Assembly (NCBI GenBank): GCA_015231965.1
Contig: JADGAP010000017.1
Coordinates: 1-34,885, forward strand
DNA from: Magnetococcales bacterium
GTDB taxonomy: Bacteria > Pseudomonadota > Magnetococcia > Magnetococcales > JADGAP01
Length of the DNA stretch: 34,885 nt
Direction of reading: 5' to 3'
The translations under genes were made by a program, and so were the position numbers. Positions 6,384-29,105 of the stretch are shown piece by piece. Numbering within the stretch: the stretch's first letter is position 1; each line of letters opens with the position of its first letter. The notes under the pieces are model-generated. The model did not search any database. It was given only the letters and a program-made list of their open reading frames with translations, and was not told where the DNA came from.

Positions 6384-6785
6384 ATGGCCAATATCTTGGT
6401 CATCGATGACGATCCGGACATCCGGGTGCTGGTGCGCAAATCCCTGGCCCTGGAAGGGCACGTGATTTTTGAGGCGGGCAACGGCGAGGAAGGGGTGGAG
6501 GTGCTGAACGATGGTGCCATCGACCTGATCATCACCGACATCTTCATGCCCGAGATGGATGGTTTTGAGTTGATCAGCGAGGTGATGAACGGTCGCCTGC
6601 ACCGGCAGGAAAAGTTCAAATCGATTAAAATAATCGCCATCACCGGCGGGCAAAAGTTAATGGATTCCCATCACATGGTGCGGATGGCCCGCATGTTCGG
6701 GGTGCATGACACCATGATCAAGCCCTTCGACCGCCTGGACATCCGGCGCAAGGTAGCGCAATTGTTGAAGGTTCCCGTCACCTGA
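6384..6785 (+). CDS. CheY-like single-domain response regulator
   Basis: The predicted 133-residue protein is a receiver domain only. Acidic residues D8-D10 bind Mg, D52 in TDIFMPEMDG is the phospho-acceptor, a T in IIAITGG follows, and the conserved Lys lies in MIKPFD. It carries no output domain, so it would signal by protein contact like CheY or Spo0F. It precedes the kinase-like and RsbU-type genes in the same direction. It may share phosphate with the receiver domains encoded there, but no kinase gene is in this island. Confidence 0.92.
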   Translation: MANILVIDDDPDIRVLVRKSLALEGHVIFEAGNGEEGVEVLNDGAIDLIITDIFMPEMDGFELISEVMNGRLHRQEKFKSIKIIAITGGQKLMDSHHMVRMARMFGVHDTMIKPFDRLDIRRKVAQLLKVPVT

Positions 6786-7003: not shown

Positions 7004-7690
7004 ATGATGCAGACGGAGCGGCAGGTGGACCGGCAGACTGAGCGTCAGGGATCATGGGGTGGTTGGGCGGAGATGGCCCACGCCATCCAGGCCCAACCCC
7101 TGGTGGTGACCGTGTCGGGCGAGCATGGATCCGGGCGGGAAGCGGTGGCGGTGGGGCTGGCGGATCGGCTGCACATGCTCTGCTACGACGCCCAGTTGAT
7201 CGACCGCCTGATTGAAAAATCGGTGGCCAACTCCAGCGACGTCAAGGCCATGCACGCGCCCAAGGGGATCAACGGATGGCTCAAGGGGATATTCGAGACG
7301 GATCGGCTGAAACGTTCCGGCTACTATCTCCACTTGGTGCGCACGGTGATGGAGATCGCCTCCACCGGCGGGGTGATCATTGGCTGCGGAGCCCACCTGA
7401 TCCTCTCCGGGCAGGGGGTGTTCCGCCTGAAGATCGAGGCTGGCACCGATTTTTGCGCCCATCGGGTGGCGCAGCAGGAGGGGATCTCCTTCGCCGAGGC
7501 GCGCAAGCGGGTGGGATTGATGAATGAGAAAAACATTAAACGGGTGAAGGAGATCTACGACCGCTTCCCCAGCGGACGCCACTACTACGATCTGGTGTTG
7601 AGCGCCGAATCCCTCTCCCCCGAGGAGATGATCGATTTGGCCTGGTTCGCCCTGGAAGAGACGGGATGCGTCCAGCCGGTCAAGTCGTAG
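7004..7690 (+). CDS. Cytidylate kinase-like family protein
   Basis: The predicted 228-residue protein matches the cytidylate-kinase-like family (PF13189 type). A P-loop-like VSGEHGSGREAVAVGLADRL lies near 37-56, with Arg where nucleotide kinases usually have Lys. The YDAQLIDRLIEKSV segment follows, then GGVIIGCGAHLIL and FRLKIEAGTDFCAHRVAQQEGIS. A final RVKEIYDRFPSGRHYYDLVL matches the family end. A Gln/Arg-rich tail of about 30 residues precedes the domain. An AGGAG site lies before the first of two ATGs. True substrate and activity in this family are mostly unknown. It is followed by a second, larger paralogue. Confidence 0.85.
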   Translation: MMQTERQVDRQTERQGSWGGWAEMAHAIQAQPLVVTVSGEHGSGREAVAVGLADRLHMLCYDAQLIDRLIEKSVANSSDVKAMHAPKGINGWLKGIFETDRLKRSGYYLHLVRTVMEIASTGGVIIGCGAHLILSGQGVFRLKIEAGTDFCAHRVAQQEGISFAEARKRVGLMNEKNIKRVKEIYDRFPSGRHYYDLVLSAESLSPEEMIDLAWFALEETGCVQPVKS

Positions 7691-7782: not shown

Positions 7783-9462
7783 ATGATGGATCTGAGTTTT
7801 GCGGAAAAAATCGGTTCCTACTGCGATGCGGAACTGTACGCCATTCACGACAAGGAAGCGGGGCCCCAGGTTCCCATTCTCACCGTCTCCCGCTCTTACG
7901 GAGCGGAAGGGAGCGAAATCGCCCGCCAACTGGCCATCAAGCTCCAGGTTGGGTTTTATGACCGGGAACTGTTTGAAATGGTGGCGGAAGAGGCCAAGGC
8001 GGACAAGCAGCTGGTGAAAATGTTGGATGAACACCCCGTCGGCCCCATCGATGAGGTGATCTACAGCATTTTTGGCAAGAAGGGGGTGACCAAGTCGGAT
8101 CTGTTGCACCACATGGTCAAGATTGTCAACACCATCTGCCTGTCGGGCGGCGTGATCGTGGGGCGGGGGGCTCACCTGTTGACCGGCAAGAAGCCGTTGT
8201 TCCGTCTGCGGGTGGAGGGATCGAGGACGGTGTGCGCCCGACGAGTGATGGAGCGCACCGGGGTCTCCGAGGAGAAGGCGCTGGCGTTGATCGAGGAGAA
8301 AAACAACGAGCGCAACCGGTTCGTGCGTTCCATCTACAAATGGTACGGGGCGGGACGGACCTTTTACGACATGGTGATCAACACCGACTTCTTCACCGTC
8401 CCCCAGGCGGTGCGGCTGGTGTTGCGGGCCATGCATCGCAAGGGGTTCAAGCTGCCCGACACGGTGCTTCAGGAGATCGGTCCGGAAAAGTTGGAGAACA
8501 ACCCCGGAGGAACGGCGGTGTGGCACGCAACGTCGATTCGGGATTCCGGGCTGCACTACGCCCCCGGTGAGGTGATCTTTGAGGAAGGGACCACGGCGGA
8601 TCGATTTTTCGTCATCCAGGAAGGTCAGGTGGAGTTGACCGCCCGGATCAACGGCGAACCGCAACGGGTGGGGGTGCTGGAATCCGGGGAGATTTTGGGG
8701 GTGGTCTCTCTGTTCACCCAGGATAAGCAGCAACTCTACAGTGCCCGGGCGGTGACGGACTGCCGGATGTTGTCGGTGGATGAAAAGTTGTTCGTGGCCC
8801 GGCTCCATTCCGATCCTTCCCTGGCGTTCCGGGTGTTGCGCCACATGGCCTCCCACATCCGCCAGGACATCCTGCAAGAGCGGGCGCTGATGGAGAGCCC
8901 GACCAGCCGGGAGGTGGTGGCGGTTGCGGAGGCGGATGGGGATTATCTGATGGAGCCGCGCCGGTCGGAGGCCAGCCTGATGGCCTTCATCTCCAGCCAC
9001 GCGGGCCTGCGGTTGTTGGTGGTGGAGGACGACGGGGACTATTTTGAACTGGTGCGGGGATGGATCGAGAGCGCCGCCCGTTCCCAGCGCAACCCCCTGC
9101 TGCCCAGCCGGGTGGAGATGGTGCGGGCCGCCACCCTGCAAGAGTCGGAGGAGCAATTGAAGGGGGGTCGGTTCTCCGCCGTGCTGTTGGACCTCAACTT
9201 GCCCGACAGCCAGGGGTTGTCCACCTTCAACCGGCTGCATCAAGCCTACCCGGGGGCTCCCTACCTGGTGCTGTCGGGGATGGACAATGAAAATATCGCC
9301 CTCAAGGCGGTGGAGGATGGGGCGGAGGATTATCTGGTCAAGCACGAGACCGACAGCCGCCATTTGATCCTGGCCATTCGCTACGCCATGGAGCGCCACG
9401 CCCGGCGGGGTGCCGAGCCGCCGTCGGCGAAGCGGGGCGGCAAGAAGGATCAAGCCGCGTGA
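7783..9462 (+). CDS. Cytidylate kinase-like / cNMP-binding / receiver fusion protein
   Basis: The predicted 559-residue protein has three parts. A cytidylate-kinase-like domain (about 30-220) carries LTVSRSYGAEGSEIARQLA, GGVIVGRGAHLL and YKWYGAGRTFYDMVINT. A CRP-like cyclic-nucleotide-binding domain (about 255-370) carries YAPGEVIFEEGTTADRFFVI and SGEILGVVSLF. A receiver domain (about 409-540) has E415-D417, phospho-acceptor D470 in LLDLNLPD and K520. No DNA-binding domain is seen. The start at 7783 follows AAGGAGAA and fits the domain limits; an in-frame ATG further upstream (7666) would overlap the previous gene. It appears to be a paralogue of that gene with two sensory domains added. Domain calls are firm; the combined function is unknown. 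Confidence 0.88.
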   Translation: MMDLSFAEKIGSYCDAELYAIHDKEAGPQVPILTVSRSYGAEGSEIARQLAIKLQVGFYDRELFEMVAEEAKADKQLVKMLDEHPVGPIDEVIYSIFGKKGVTKSDLLHHMVKIVNTICLSGGVIVGRGAHLLTGKKPLFRLRVEGSRTVCARRVMERTGVSEEKALALIEEKNNERNRFVRSIYKWYGAGRTFYDMVINTDFFTVPQAVRLVLRAMHRKGFKLPDTVLQEIGPEKLENNPGGTAVWHATSIRDSGLHYAPGEVIFEEGTTADRFFVIQEGQVELTARINGEPQRVGVLESGEILGVVSLFTQDKQQLYSARAVTDCRMLSVDEKLFVARLHSDPSLAFRVLRHMASHIRQDILQERALMESPTSREVVAVAEADGDYLMEPRRSEASLMAFISSHAGLRLLVVEDDGDYFELVRGWIESAARSQRNPLLPSRVEMVRAATLQESEEQLKGGRFSAVLLDLNLPDSQGLSTFNRLHQAYPGAPYLVLSGMDNENIALKAVEDGAEDYLVKHETDSRHLILAIRYAMERHARRGAEPPSAKRGGKKDQAA

Positions 9463-9654
9463 CGTGGTCCGTTCAGCGCGACCAGGCGCTTGACGGCCGG
9501 GGGGAGGCGCGGGCGGCGTGAAAAACGGGCGAGGGTTTCCACGGTCCTCCCCGTTTTCCATTCATCCCCGGGGAGGGGGGCCACGGGGGGAGGGGGCCAC
9601 GCTCCCCGGCGCGGTGGATGGATCCCCCGGCGGGGGGCGGGAAAGGGGCGCGAC

Positions 9655-11328
9655 ATGGACGGGGCGGCGGCGTTGTGGGCGCGGGAAGAGGCGGTCGTCG
9701 TGCTGATCGTGGATGACGACGAGGAAAGCCTGACGTTGTTGGAGCGGTTGCTCCAACAAGAAGGGTTGGCGGTGGTGCGGGCCTCCCACGGTCAGGAGGC
9801 GGTGGAACAGTTCGAGGCCCATCACCCGGCGCTGGTGTTCATGGACGTGATGATGCCGGGGATGGACGGCCTGCGGGCGGCGGAGGCGATCAAGGCCCGT
9901 TCCGGCGAGCAGTTGACGCCGGTGATCTTTCTCACCGCCCTGGAGGGTCGGCAGGAGGAGGCGGATTGCCTCCAGCACGGCGGGGATGATTATCTGGTCA
10001 AGCCGGTGCATAAGCGGGTGTTGCGGGCGAGGCTCAATGCGTGGCTGCGCAACGTGCGGCTGGCCTCCAGCGTCAAGGCCCATCGGGATCAACTGGTCTT
10101 CGAGCGGGATTTCATCGCCACGTTGTTGGAAGGGATTCGCCGTTCCGACGTGTTCGAGGAGGCGGGGTTGAGCTTTCGCATGACCTCGGTGGAGAACTCC
10201 ACCGGTGATCTGCTGCTCTCCGCCAGCCGTCCCGATGGGGTGCGTCATCTGTTGCTGGGGGATTTCACCGGTCATGGTTTGGCAGCGGCCATGGGGACGC
10301 CCCAGGCCTCCGACGTTTTTTTCACCATGACCCGGCGCGGCTTCGGCGTGGAGGAGATCTTGCGCCAGATGAACCATCGCCTGTACGGGCGGCTGCCCAC
10401 CATGATGTATCTGGCGGCGGTGATGGTCTCCCATGATCCCTGGCGGGGGCTGCTCAAACTGTGGAACGGTGGCATGCCGGAGTTGTTGCTGTTCCACGAG
10501 GGTCGATTGCGGGAGCGCATCGGCTCCCGCCGTCTGCCGGTGAGCGTGGTGGATGAGACGGTTTTTGACGCCTCTTGCGCCATTTATCCGGTGGAACCGG
10601 GGGATCACCTCTTTCTCTGTTCCGACGGCGTGACCGAATTGACCAATCCCGAGGGGGAGATGTTCGGGGAGGAGCGTCTGGAGGCGCTGTTGAGCGAGTC
10701 TTTTCGCCGGGGGGAGGGGTTGGAGCGGGTTTACGCCGGGCTGAACGATTGGCGAGGGGCGTTGGCTCCCCACGACGATCTTTCCATGGCCTTGTTTCGT
10801 TGCGATCCGCCTCCGCCGCCGCCCCCTCCGCCGTTGCGTCGATCCGGTGCGGAGGAGCCGTTGCGTTTGGATTGGGAGTTGACGGAGACGGTGCGGGCTT
10901 CGTTGTTGCAAAGTTCCGACTGGTTGCCGCAACTGGGGGAGCGGGTGGGGGGGCATCCTCAATTACATGCGTGCCGCTCGTCGTTGTACGTCATTCTCAA
11001 GGAGTTGGTGGAAAACGCCTTGCAACACGGTTTGCTCCATCTGCCGCCCCGGCGCGGCGTGGATCCGGAGGCTTGGGAAGGGATGGTGCAACACGCGCTG
11101 TCGGTCCTGGGGGAGGGGATGATCCGGATTCATGTGGAACACCGGGTTCCCCTGAGCGGATCGGGGCGGGGCGAGGTGATTTTGTGGGTGCAAAACAGCG
11201 GCGCGGCGGGGGAGCCCGAGACGTGGCGAGAGGGGGTCGGACTGGCGCGGGTGCGGGGGATGTGCCGGGAGTTGAGCTTTTCCGATGGGGGGAGGACCGC
11301 CCAGGCGGTGTTCGGTTGTTGCGACTGA
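9655..11328 (+). CDS. Receiver-PP2C phosphatase (RsbU/SpoIIE type) with C-terminal HATPase domain
   Basis: The predicted 557-residue protein starts with a receiver (about 14-130; D20-D22, phospho-acceptor D64 in FMDVMMPGMDG, K116). A coiled link leads to a SpoIIE-type PP2C domain (about 175-382) with metal ligands in STGDLL, LGDFTGHGLAAAMG, CSDGVTEL and HDDLS. A run of nine prolines (385-393) leads to an HATPase_c domain of the RsbW type (about 405-557) with the N-box KELVENALQHGL. In partner-switching systems PP2C enzymes dephosphorylate STAS proteins and RsbW-type kinases phosphorylate them, so this chain appears to join both activities under a receiver. No STAS or sigma-factor gene is nearby. 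The ATG at 9655 follows GGAAAGGGG. Confidence 0.9.
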   Translation: MDGAAALWAREEAVVVLIVDDDEESLTLLERLLQQEGLAVVRASHGQEAVEQFEAHHPALVFMDVMMPGMDGLRAAEAIKARSGEQLTPVIFLTALEGRQEEADCLQHGGDDYLVKPVHKRVLRARLNAWLRNVRLASSVKAHRDQLVFERDFIATLLEGIRRSDVFEEAGLSFRMTSVENSTGDLLLSASRPDGVRHLLLGDFTGHGLAAAMGTPQASDVFFTMTRRGFGVEEILRQMNHRLYGRLPTMMYLAAVMVSHDPWRGLLKLWNGGMPELLLFHEGRLRERIGSRRLPVSVVDETVFDASCAIYPVEPGDHLFLCSDGVTELTNPEGEMFGEERLEALLSESFRRGEGLERVYAGLNDWRGALAPHDDLSMALFRCDPPPPPPPPPLRRSGAEEPLRLDWELTETVRASLLQSSDWLPQLGERVGGHPQLHACRSSLYVILKELVENALQHGLLHLPPRRGVDPEAWEGMVQHALSVLGEGMIRIHVEHRVPLSGSGRGEVILWVQNSGAAGEPETWREGVGLARVRGMCRELSFSDGGRTAQAVFGCCD

Positions 11329-11490
11329 GCGGGCGGAGTCGTTCGGCTTGCCGTCGTCGGGGTGGGCATGACGTGCGGGGGTCGAATCTTCCCGTCGAGA
11401 TGATTTATTCTGGGGTCCATGGACGATGGCGGTCGGCAAGCGCCGAGAAGCCGTCGGCAGGACGAGATGACCTTTTCCGGAGGAGAAAAC

Positions 11491-12504
11491 ATGGCTGGAA
11501 ACAATTCTGGGACGCTGGCGGCGGGATATCCGCTGGCGATGGCGGCGGCGCTGTTCCTGTCGTGGGGGGCTTCCGCCCAGGCGGCGGGATGGCTGGGGTG
11601 CAACGTGGGGCCGGCCAAGGGGGTGGAGGTTCGGGAAATTTACAAGGAGAGCCCGGCGGACCGCCTGGGCCTGCTGCGGGGGGATGTCATCCTGACCCTC
11701 AACGGCATTGAATTGACCGATCCGTGGCAGATGGAACGGTTGCTCGCCGCCGCCCCGGCGGGGAGCGAGGCGACCCTGTCGGTGATGCGCGCCGGTCAAA
11801 AGTTGGAGTTGAAAACCAAGTTGGAGGATGGGGCCCGCCGCTTTGCGCCCCAAGCCCCGATTTCTCCGCCGGAGGAAAAGGGCGGCGCTCCCGGCGTCTC
11901 GGCGGCACCCGTGCAGCGGGGGGGAATGCCCGGCTATGGCCCCACCGCCCCGCCGGTGGCCCTGGGTCACACCCACGACGCCGCGGTGCGTCTGGAAAGC
12001 GCCCGTTCGCTGTTGGAGGCCTACGACCGCATTCGCCTGGAGAAAAACGCCGGTGCCGAGGCGGAAAAGCTCTCCCAGCACGTGGCCCTGATGCTGAGCC
12101 AGGCCCAGGAGTTGTTGCGTCTTTATCGTATGGACGAGGGGCGGTCGTTGTTGAACGAAGCCTATCGGACGGTCAAGCAGGAGTTGCAAAAATTGCGGGG
12201 GGGCGAAACCCTGATCAACCCCCTGCGTTTCCAGAACAAGCTGGATGAACTGACCTACGAGCGCAACCGCAACGGCATGTATGAAATGTTGGTGCGGAGC
12301 ATCCCGGACTTTCCCAATCGGATTTCCCAGGGGGATCCCCTGTTCCAGAGCGCCATGACCTTGCGCCAATCGGCGGAAAACGCCTCGGTGCAAGGCGATC
12401 CGGAATCCGGGGTCAAGCTGATGGAGCAGTCCACCAGCAAACTGGTGCGGCTGCTCAAGGAGGCGGGGCTGGACATCCCCGACGAGACCGGAATGACGCC
12501 CTGA
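11491..12504 (+). CDS. Exported PDZ-domain protein with helical C-terminus
   Basis: The predicted 337-residue protein has a signal peptide (hydrophobic stretch about 11-26; likely cleavage after AQA at 31). A PDZ domain follows (about 40-112; GVEVREIYKESPADRLGLLRGDVIL and LNGIEL), then a Pro/Gly-rich linker (about 117-175) and a charged helical region to the end. No protease domain is present, so it probably binds peptides or partners in the periplasm. A GGAGGAG site precedes the ATG at 11491. It follows the RsbU-type gene after 162 bases and ends before a good terminator, closing the signalling island. A functional link to those genes is inferred only from position. Confidence 0.8.
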   Translation: MAGNNSGTLAAGYPLAMAAALFLSWGASAQAAGWLGCNVGPAKGVEVREIYKESPADRLGLLRGDVILTLNGIELTDPWQMERLLAAAPAGSEATLSVMRAGQKLELKTKLEDGARRFAPQAPISPPEEKGGAPGVSAAPVQRGGMPGYGPTAPPVALGHTHDAAVRLESARSLLEAYDRIRLEKNAGAEAEKLSQHVALMLSQAQELLRLYRMDEGRSLLNEAYRTVKQELQKLRGGETLINPLRFQNKLDELTYERNRNGMYEMLVRSIPDFPNRISQGDPLFQSAMTLRQSAENASVQGDPESGVKLMEQSTSKLVRLLKEAGLDIPDETGMTP

Positions 12505-14838: not shown

Positions 14839-16275
14839 TTACGATGCCAGAGCCTTCATGTCGTCGGCGTGGGGGGCGTCCGCCGGGGAGTGGGATTCGG
14901 CCAGGGTGATGGAGCCATCCTCCGCCACCTTGAGATCCTCGAAGCGGACCCGGGTGATGCGATGGTTGTCCATCTCCATCACCACCAGACGGGCGGACTC
15001 CAGCTCCACCACGTCGCCCATCTTGGGCACCCGGCCCAGATGTTTGTAGACCATGCCGGCCAGGGTGACGTAGTCCCGATCCGAGGGGAAGGGGTAGGCC
15101 AACACATCTTCCAGGTCGGAAACCCGCATGGAGGCGTCGATGTCGTACTGGCTGCCTTCCAGCTTTTTGACCCGGCGGGCCTGACGGGTGAACTCGTCCT
15201 CGTACTCGCCGACGATCTCCTCCAGGATGTCCTCCAGGGTGATCACGCCTTCGGTGCCGCCGTACTCGTCGATGACGATGGCCATCTGCTGACGGGTGCG
15301 CTTGAACTCCTTGAGCAGGTCGCTCAACGATTTGCTGTTGGGCACGATGAACGGCGGATTGACGAACTGGCTCACCGGGCGCTTGCTCACTTCGCTCATG
15401 TTTTCGCCGCTTTCGGCCATGATGCTCAGCAACTCCTTGATCGCCACGATGCCGATGATGTTATCCATGGTCCCGTCATAGACCGGGAAGCGGGCGTGGG
15501 GGGTCTCCTTGAATAACTTCATGGCTTCGCCCAGGCTGGCGTCTTTGGCCAGGGCCAGGATCTCGGTGCGGGGGATCATGGCGTCGCGGACGGTATGCTC
15601 GTCCAGGTCGAACACGCCCCGGATCATCTGGGTCTCTTCCGGCTTCAACACGCCGGCCCCTTCGCTGGCGGAGATGATGGTGCGGATCTCCTCCTGGGTC
15701 ATGGTGAAGTGTTCGCCATGGGAGCCGATGAGATCCTTTTGCCCCCAGGTCCACAGCAAGAAGTTGGAAGCGTGCTTCATGGCCCAGATCACCGGAGTCC
15801 AGGCGATGTACTGGGCGTTGACCGACCAGGAGACCGCCATGGCGATGGGTTCCGCCTTGTGGAAGGCGAGAATTTTGGGGGCCAACTCGCCGGCCACCAC
15901 GTGAAGGAAGGAGATGATGCAGAAGGCGATGAACCAGGCCGTGGTGTGGGCGATCTCCATCAGGCGCTCCCCCTGCCCGAACATGGAGAAGAGCCCCTCG
16001 AACCAGGGGTTCATGATCTGGGCCAGGGTGTCCATGCCCACGGCGCCCAAGGCCAGGGAGACCAGGGTGATGCCGATCTGGGTGACGGAGTAGAAACGTT
16101 CCGGCTCGTTGTGCAGCTCCTGCACCCGAAGCGCGGCCTTGTTGCCTTGGTCCGCCAACTGCCGAATTTTGCTCCGACGCGCCCCAGTGATGGCCACTTC
16201 CGCGCCCACGAAGTAGGCGTTGCCCATGATCAGAACCAGGATCATCAACAGTTTAAGCCATAAGACGGTTTCCAT
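14839..16275 (-). CDS. CNNM/CorC-type membrane protein (DUF21-CBS-CorC_HlyC)
   Basis: The predicted 478-residue inner-membrane protein starts [22 protein letters not shown]. It has the DUF21/CNNM domain (about 1-195) with [16 protein letters not shown] and the [15 protein letters not shown] loop. A CBS pair follows (about 215-335; [35 protein letters not shown] and [27 protein letters not shown]), then a CorC_HlyC domain. Related proteins are linked to Mg or Co homeostasis and bind adenine nucleotides through CBS. The ATG at 16275 was preferred over one 26 codons upstream because AAAGGGAAAC lies before it and the family begins there. The region upstream (16320-16350) is AT-rich and may hold the promoter. 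Confidence 0.9.
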
Positions 16276-16383
16276 TTTGTTTCCCTTTGATCCTTCCCTC
16301 GCTGCAATCCGCTCTCCCATCGGCGGATTATTTTTTATTATTATCCGGAACACAACAAGTGTTATGCATCCGAGTTGGCGGAA

Positions 16384-27797: not shown

Positions 27798-29105
27798 ATG
27801 ATGGTACCGTATAAGGCGATCTCAATCGTTAGGATGAGTGATAAGGCAATATATGACCTGTTGATGGGGATTTTCCAGGAAATTGGCCTAACAGTGGAAA
27901 ATTCCAATTTTAGGCACGATGGGACGCAGATCGATAAGGATAGATTCCTGAAAATCGCCGAGGATTACACCTTTATTTTTACTGAGTTTCTCTTTATTAT
28001 TAAGGAAGATTCTAGCGGTAGTAGGGTGGTGGTTAATGCAGAAAGAAATAATGAAAATTATATTGACAACGTGACAATCGGAACTGCTAGTGGGAATCCG
28101 GTAACTGTTGTTAAGGATAAGATGATGGAGTTTGTTGTTGCCCTCTCTAAGTCTCCTAAAGTGGTTCAGCCAAGTAGGTTGCTATCCACCTTTTTGGGAG
28201 ACGAGAACAATTTGTATCTCCAGGCTAGAGAGGCGGAGATTGAGAGGCTTACTAATGCCTCCAGGTCTATAATTGTCGATCAGCAGGATTTTCTTAAAGA
28301 GCGTGAGAGGCAATATAGTGAGTTATTTGATAAGGTCCGCAGAGATTTTGAGGAAAAGGATGGAAAACTGGAGTTACAGTTTGCTGAACGTAAGAGCAAA
28401 TTAGATGAAGAGGCTTTGGCGAAGAAACGCCAATTGGAAGAGTATGAAGAAGAACTAAATAAGAAGGCAGAAGAATTAAGAGATGGCGAGGCAAGACATG
28501 AGCGGCGAAAGATCCGGGAGGACATCAAGAAAGAATTGAAGGTTAGAAGTGAGGTGTTTAAATTAACAAGCGGCACCATGAGGAATCGATGGGCTGTGCA
28601 TGGCCTGTGCATCATGTTATTGATGGTTTTTGGCGGATTGTTTTGGAATAAAATGAGCAGTCTCCCGTCTGTGCTGGATTTATTCCATTATCTTTCGTTA
28701 GGCGGTTTGGCTTTTGCGTTCAGTGGCACGGCTATTTACTATCTAAAATGGCAGAATAGCTGGTTTCAACAGCTTGCCCAAGAAGAGTTGCGTTTGAAAC
28801 GCATGGAGTTGGACATTGATCGCGCCAGTTGGGTGGCGGAAATGATGGTGGAAATGGAAAGAGAGTTTCATGAAGGATTTTATGAAACTGAAGTGGCGAA
28901 AAATTTGTTCGACCGTCTGACCGCCAACATGTTCACCGATTCGCAACGCCCCGAAACCGTTCATCATCCCGTGGATCAATTGGCATCGGCGCTGCTGGGC
29001 AGCGCGGCTAACGTCAAATTGAGACTACCGGGAGGCAGCGAAATCGATCTTGACAAAAAGGGCATCAAGGATATGAGCGAGCAGAAAGCGCAGGCGGGGA
29101 GGTGA
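27798..29105 (+). CDS. AT-rich membrane-anchored coiled-coil protein of unknown function
   Basis: I do not recognise this predicted 435-residue protein. Residues 14-120 form a mixed alpha/beta domain. A long charged coiled coil runs about 136-250 (KLDEEALAKKRQLEEYEEEL). Two membrane helices follow (about 266-283 and 296-315), then a second helix (about 318-380) and a short C-terminal part. The base composition is much more AT-rich than its neighbours over 27.8-28.8 kb and returns toward host-like values near 28.9 kb. TATGGAG precedes an ATGATG pair; M13 (27834) is another possible start. With adjoining hicAB this looks acquired. A role as membrane sensor or defence component is speculative. 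Confidence 0.75.
   Translation: MMVPYKAISIVRMSDKAIYDLLMGIFQEIGLTVENSNFRHDGTQIDKDRFLKIAEDYTFIFTEFLFIIKEDSSGSRVVVNAERNNENYIDNVTIGTASGNPVTVVKDKMMEFVVALSKSPKVVQPSRLLSTFLGDENNLYLQAREAEIERLTNASRSIIVDQQDFLKERERQYSELFDKVRRDFEEKDGKLELQFAERKSKLDEEALAKKRQLEEYEEELNKKAEELRDGEARHERRKIREDIKKELKVRSEVFKLTSGTMRNRWAVHGLCIMLLMVFGGLFWNKMSSLPSVLDLFHYLSLGGLAFAFSGTAIYYLKWQNSWFQQLAQEELRLKRMELDIDRASWVAEMMVEMEREFHEGFYETEVAKNLFDRLTANMFTDSQRPETVHHPVDQLASALLGSAANVKLRLPGGSEIDLDKKGIKDMSEQKAQAGR

Follow-up and report, generated by a model that had tools for sequence, protein, structure and literature searches.

A Magnetococcales signalling protein joining a cytidylate-kinase-like domain to a cNMP-binding fold and a receiver

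What might a protein do that carries a cytidylate-kinase-like domain, a cNMP-binding fold and a receiver on one chain, and is such a chain real? The question is raised by an open reading frame in a contig of 34,885 nucleotides from a Magnetococcales bacterium (JADGAP010000017.1, assembly GCA_015231965.1), the whole of which we call the window. The first-pass annotation had assigned these three domains to one protein and regarded their combination as unusual, and both points stand. The frame is intact, with AAGGAGAACGGCC just 5' of its ATG start, and all three Pfam matches lie above the curated cut-offs (Table 1); no DNA-binding domain was found C-terminal to the receiver. The possibility that the gene is a frameshift or an assembly fusion of separate genes was rejected, since an orthologous fusion with the same domain order occurs in a second genome, Magnetococcales bacterium nWRX3bin10 (G013, contig JADGCL010000002.1), which belongs to a different Magnetococcales family. 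The two proteins are 42% identical over residues 28-483, the G013 copy ending at a contig edge inside the receiver with last residues that look unreliable.

Table 1. Positions of the fusion gene, its domains and motifs, and other genes of the window. Residue numbers are those of the fusion protein.
Feature	Position	Strand	Details
Single-domain receiver	6384..6785	+	133 aa, upstream of CytK'
CytK', small PF13189 paralogue	7004..7690	+	228 aa, Pfam 6.8e-27
Fusion gene	7783..9462	+	559 aa, cytidylate-kinase-like, cNMP-binding fold and receiver; single uninterrupted frame
PF13189 cytidylate-kinase-like domain	7876..8388	+	residues 32-202, Pfam 5e-34, 118.4 bits against a curated cut-off of 28
P-loop region SRSYGAEGSE	7888-7917	+	Gly43 at the Walker A Lys position
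GRGAHL motif of PF13189 domain	8161-8178	+	retained
NNER motif of PF13189 domain	8302-8313	+	retained
PF00027 cNMP-binding-like domain	8554..8799	+	residues 258-339, Pfam 9e-20, 70.8 bits against a cut-off of 27.5
Phosphate-binding cassette GEILGVVSLFTQDKQQLYSARA	8686-8751	+	V307 and Q317 replace the canonical Glu and Arg
Receiver domain	9019..9420	+	PF00072 residues 444-529, Pfam 6.5e-13, 49.3 bits, above the curated cut-off
Receiver - PP2C (SpoIIE) - weak C-terminal HATPase protein	9652..11328	+	downstream of the fusion
PDZ-domain protein	11419-12504		directly downstream of the PP2C gene
CNNM/CorC-type transporter	14839-16353	-	with CBS domains
Open reading frame	27798-29105		435 aa, no clear Pfam match

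Among 399 Pseudomonadota genomes (E<=1e-25), all three domains were matched in two only, the window's own genome (G000) and G013, both of Magnetococcales; G001 was matched over the kinase-like and cNMP part, its form being PF13189 plus cNMP, which, together with the G013 orthologue, excludes a chance joining of the domains. The rarity of the fusion is established within Pseudomonadota. We also searched 48 Magnetococcales genomes from 14 families. Relatives of the kinase-like domain outside Magnetococcales numbered two in Pseudomonadota, with a PPK2 polyphosphate-kinase gene near neither. When 64 kinase-like domains were placed in a tree, the three fused copies grouped as a single clade (support 100/99), which is nested in a clade of 21 rows (97/93) containing all ten rows marked as PPK2-linked. 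The fusion is a genuine Magnetococcales-specific signalling protein, with a single origin in three families.

Its parts also occur on their own and in other combinations. In many genomes the cNMP-REC half stands as a gene of its own; one such response regulator of 342 aa, on contig C257 of the window's genome, has no kinase-like domain and shares 41% identity with the last two domains of the fusion, in the same order. In G022, CytK', CytK, cNMP and REC are four adjacent separate genes, ordered as in the fusion, with divergent cNMP and REC. Independent fusions were found as CytK-REC (one family, ten tree rows, with receiver genes and an Hpt gene often coming next), as cNMP-CytK in G002 and as CytK-HisKA-HATPase-REC in G036. 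A hybrid histidine kinase at L088 3318-5216 has its PF13189 domain at the N-terminal sensor position, and in G016 and G039 a cNMP-REC gene directly precedes CytK-REC. The kinase-like domain has been fused to cNMP, receiver or histidine-kinase modules on at least four separate occasions. As fusion and adjacency recur, we argue that the parts work together.

The kinase-like domain is the least conventional of the three. A full CMP or NMP kinase would carry the Walker A motif GxxGxGK[ST], and the fusion has Gly43 at the Lys position. This Lys is missing in all 64 Magnetococcales kinase-like domains examined, being replaced by Gly in the fusion clade, Gly or Ser in the PPK2-linked group, mostly Ala or Arg in CytK' and Met or Val in another group. 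A separate, deep PF13189 group (L078-L088) has the P-loop GPFGSGM. A true Cmk with an intact GAGAGKG P-loop is encoded elsewhere in the window's genome. Compared with CMP kinase (Cmk; E. coli 1CKE), the domain shares the overall fold but lacks the Walker A Lys and has very weak profile similarity. In a model of the CytK domain (pLDDT 71, four sequences), the best Foldseek matches were 3FDI and 3HDT (target TM 0.67-0.79), followed by CMP and adenylate kinases. These two structures are solved but uncharacterised members of PF13189 (Cytidylate_kin2), which resemble the fusion in fold, in a degenerate P-loop that also lacks the Walker A Lys, and in the conserved GR and Arg residues; they are single-domain proteins, whereas the window protein is fused to cNMP and receiver domains and paired with a second paralogue. 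We found no function, binding or activity data for PF13189 members in the literature. The kinase-like fold proposed earlier is matched among NMP kinases; the absence of the Walker A Lys throughout speaks against the simple kinase output that went with it.

The loss of this Lys does not by itself exclude catalysis. The protein could be an active kinase for nucleotides or another small molecule, with an unusual P-loop and switched by the receiver, so that the fusion would be a regulated metabolic enzyme acting on nucleotides near PPK2 products. The fusion and PPK2-linked groups retain R37, R128, R141, R154 and R177, while G40, G123 and G127 persist almost throughout the kinase-like domains; the domain is folded like an NMP kinase, and PPK2 enzymes handle nucleotides (PMC7347700). 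We nevertheless consider an active enzyme rather unlikely, given that not one of the 64 domains has a Lys at the Walker A position and that the domain is repeatedly found with signalling modules, one case being the hybrid histidine kinase of G036, where it occupies the sensor position. A signalling protein specific to this lineage, in which the kinase-like domain would be a non-canonical module sensing nucleotide or phosphate, paired with CytK' and under phosphorelay control, is the reading that we favour, and we regard it as about evenly balanced between right and wrong.

What such a module might respond to is suggested by its stand-alone relatives, a link to polyphosphate that the first-pass annotation overlooked. 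A PPK2 gene lies within 4 kb of CytK at 29 loci in 29 of the 48 Magnetococcales genomes and 12 of the 14 families (about 0.5 expected), counts that are not independent events, as the operon is largely inherited, yet has persisted through deep splits between families. At all 29 loci PPK2 is upstream on the same strand, and 20 of them also have a CHAD gene no more than 6 kb away, on the opposite strand. The linked PPK2s make up one of about four PPK2 paralogue clades (99/94), with three unlinked rows inside it. In several genomes, CorC-type genes separate PPK2 from CytK or flank CytK, and the window has a similar gene (Table 1). The window's genome has this arrangement on contig C67 (L040 240-3468), where CHAD, PPK2 and a stand-alone CytK occur together and PPK2 immediately precedes CytK on the same strand, as recurs across the order. 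This CytK belongs to the same clade as the first domain of the fusion, with 41% identity; unlike the fusion, it is a single domain located behind PPK2, with CHAD divergent. The window's contig itself gave no PPK2 match, so that the fusion has no PPK2 directly upstream, and its own link to polyphosphate is one that we infer by paralogy. PPK1 (PF02503) was detected in none of the 48 Magnetococcales genomes, in a search that detected the controls. According to an earlier report, Magnetococcales possess several PPK2 but lack PPK1 (PMC6783814); CHAD domains bind polyphosphate (PMC6537752), and magnetotactic cocci can fill as much as 90% of their cell volume with it (PMC8786505). A literature search on PPK2 together with cytidylate kinase returned nothing useful. 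Gene order suggests a role of stand-alone CytK in polyphosphate metabolism and, since the closest single-domain relatives of the fusion are encoded beside PPK2, CytK proteins are candidate regulators of the polyphosphate store.

The immediate neighbourhood of the fusion points to a partner of another kind. The first-pass annotation had noted that the gene follows a single-domain paralogue, and this neighbour proves to be fixed: in all three members of the fusion clade, the gene immediately before the fused one, on the same strand, encodes a degenerate PF13189 paralogue. In the window, the start and ribosome-binding context of CytK' is almost identical to that of the fusion. CytK' is the more degenerate of the two, with Gly in place of Arg37 (in nine of nine CytK') and, in the window copy, Cys in place of Arg128, a residue mostly lost among CytK' proteins; it looks like a pseudo-enzyme partner. 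An unfused CytK'/CytK pair occurs in six further genomes. One such pair, at G010 C1:2053588-2054825 (L043), belongs to a genome that is complete as one contig of 4,719,581 bases. In G013, a receiver gene is located upstream of the pair (L038 2631-3287), as in the window. CytK' and the fusion are probably partners, as judged from the adjacency of their genes.

Downstream of the fusion is an RsbU-type gene, and the first-pass annotation had raised the possibility that such a gene would be a constant neighbour. It was seen beside the fusion in the window alone; G001 has one about 4 kb away on the opposite strand, and RsbU-type genes are present in all 48 Magnetococcales genomes, usually several in each. 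A role as a fixed partner was rejected as unproven. The architecture of the downstream protein is like that of HsbR-type receiver-PP2C regulators, although as a neighbour it lacks fixed linkage to the fusion. This bears on an explanation in which a phosphorelay feeds into partner-switching: the fusion would serve the downstream receiver-PP2C-HATPase protein as an adaptor, its kinase-like domain being no more than a scaffold. The two genes are adjacent on the same strand, a terminator-like site was not found between them on that strand, and HsbR-type partner switches do exist (PMC6482189). We find this explanation decidedly unlikely, since the place of the RsbU-type gene next to the fusion is not conserved while such proteins occur in all 48 genomes, usually several in each, and since the window's contig gave no STAS gene, whereas elsewhere in the genome three proteins of this type have one as a neighbour.

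There remains the cNMP domain. The earlier description of it as a cyclic-nucleotide sensor holds for the PF00027 domain, which is real; sensing is doubtful. Binding of cAMP or cGMP would go with Glu and Arg in the pocket and, because V307 and Q317 take their places in the window copy (Table 1), binding by this copy is doubtful. The pockets of the orthologues are mixed, being partly kept in G013 and G001, and some of these proteins may indeed bind a ligand. The cNMP-REC regulator on contig C257, unlike the fusion, has the canonical pocket Glu and Arg. A genuine cyclic-nucleotide-gated switch, as had been proposed, would agree with a PF00027 match far above its cut-off, with the Glu and an Arg retained in G013, and with ten class III cyclase-domain matches in the genome, owing to which cAMP or cGMP is probably made. 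The substitutions at two key pocket positions, neither of which is conserved in the clade, nevertheless make such a switch very improbable. The receiver has kept its acidic pocket (E415/D416/D417), the phospho-acceptor D470, S498 and K520. In a full-length AlphaFold model it matches CheY-like domains, although the model (pLDDT 56, cNMP part below 50) is too weak for domain arrangement.

Returning to the lineage-specific signalling protein, we suggest that a PF13189 protein of the PPK2-associated family became fused to a response regulator with cNMP fold and receiver, giving the present gene. The kinase-like domain would bind a nucleotide or a ligand rich in phosphate, with no classical phosphotransfer, and would have a sensory or regulatory role, probably in a pair with CytK'. 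A histidine kinase would phosphorylate D470 and so change the state of the CytK'/fusion pair, the cNMP fold being mainly a dimerising or relay module. The output would be protein-protein, and PPK2 or polyphosphate metabolism would be the likely client of the stand-alone relatives. The first-pass interpretation as a whole thus remains sound on domains, rarity and paralogue, and is weak on the sensor and unsupported on the RsbU link. A bolder and unlikely extension is that Magnetococcales PF13189 proteins are regulatory partners of a dedicated PPK2, enabling very large polyphosphate stores without PPK1, with the fusion as a two-component-controlled version. Because its genes accompany one specific PPK2 and its domain has repeatedly been joined to signalling domains, the PF13189 family is a candidate for polyphosphate control, and this PPK2 and signalling context offers PF13189 a first setting open to testing. 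Other neighbours of CytK, as read from the sequences, include Mfd (three genomes) and a helicase or Ser/Thr kinase (one genome).
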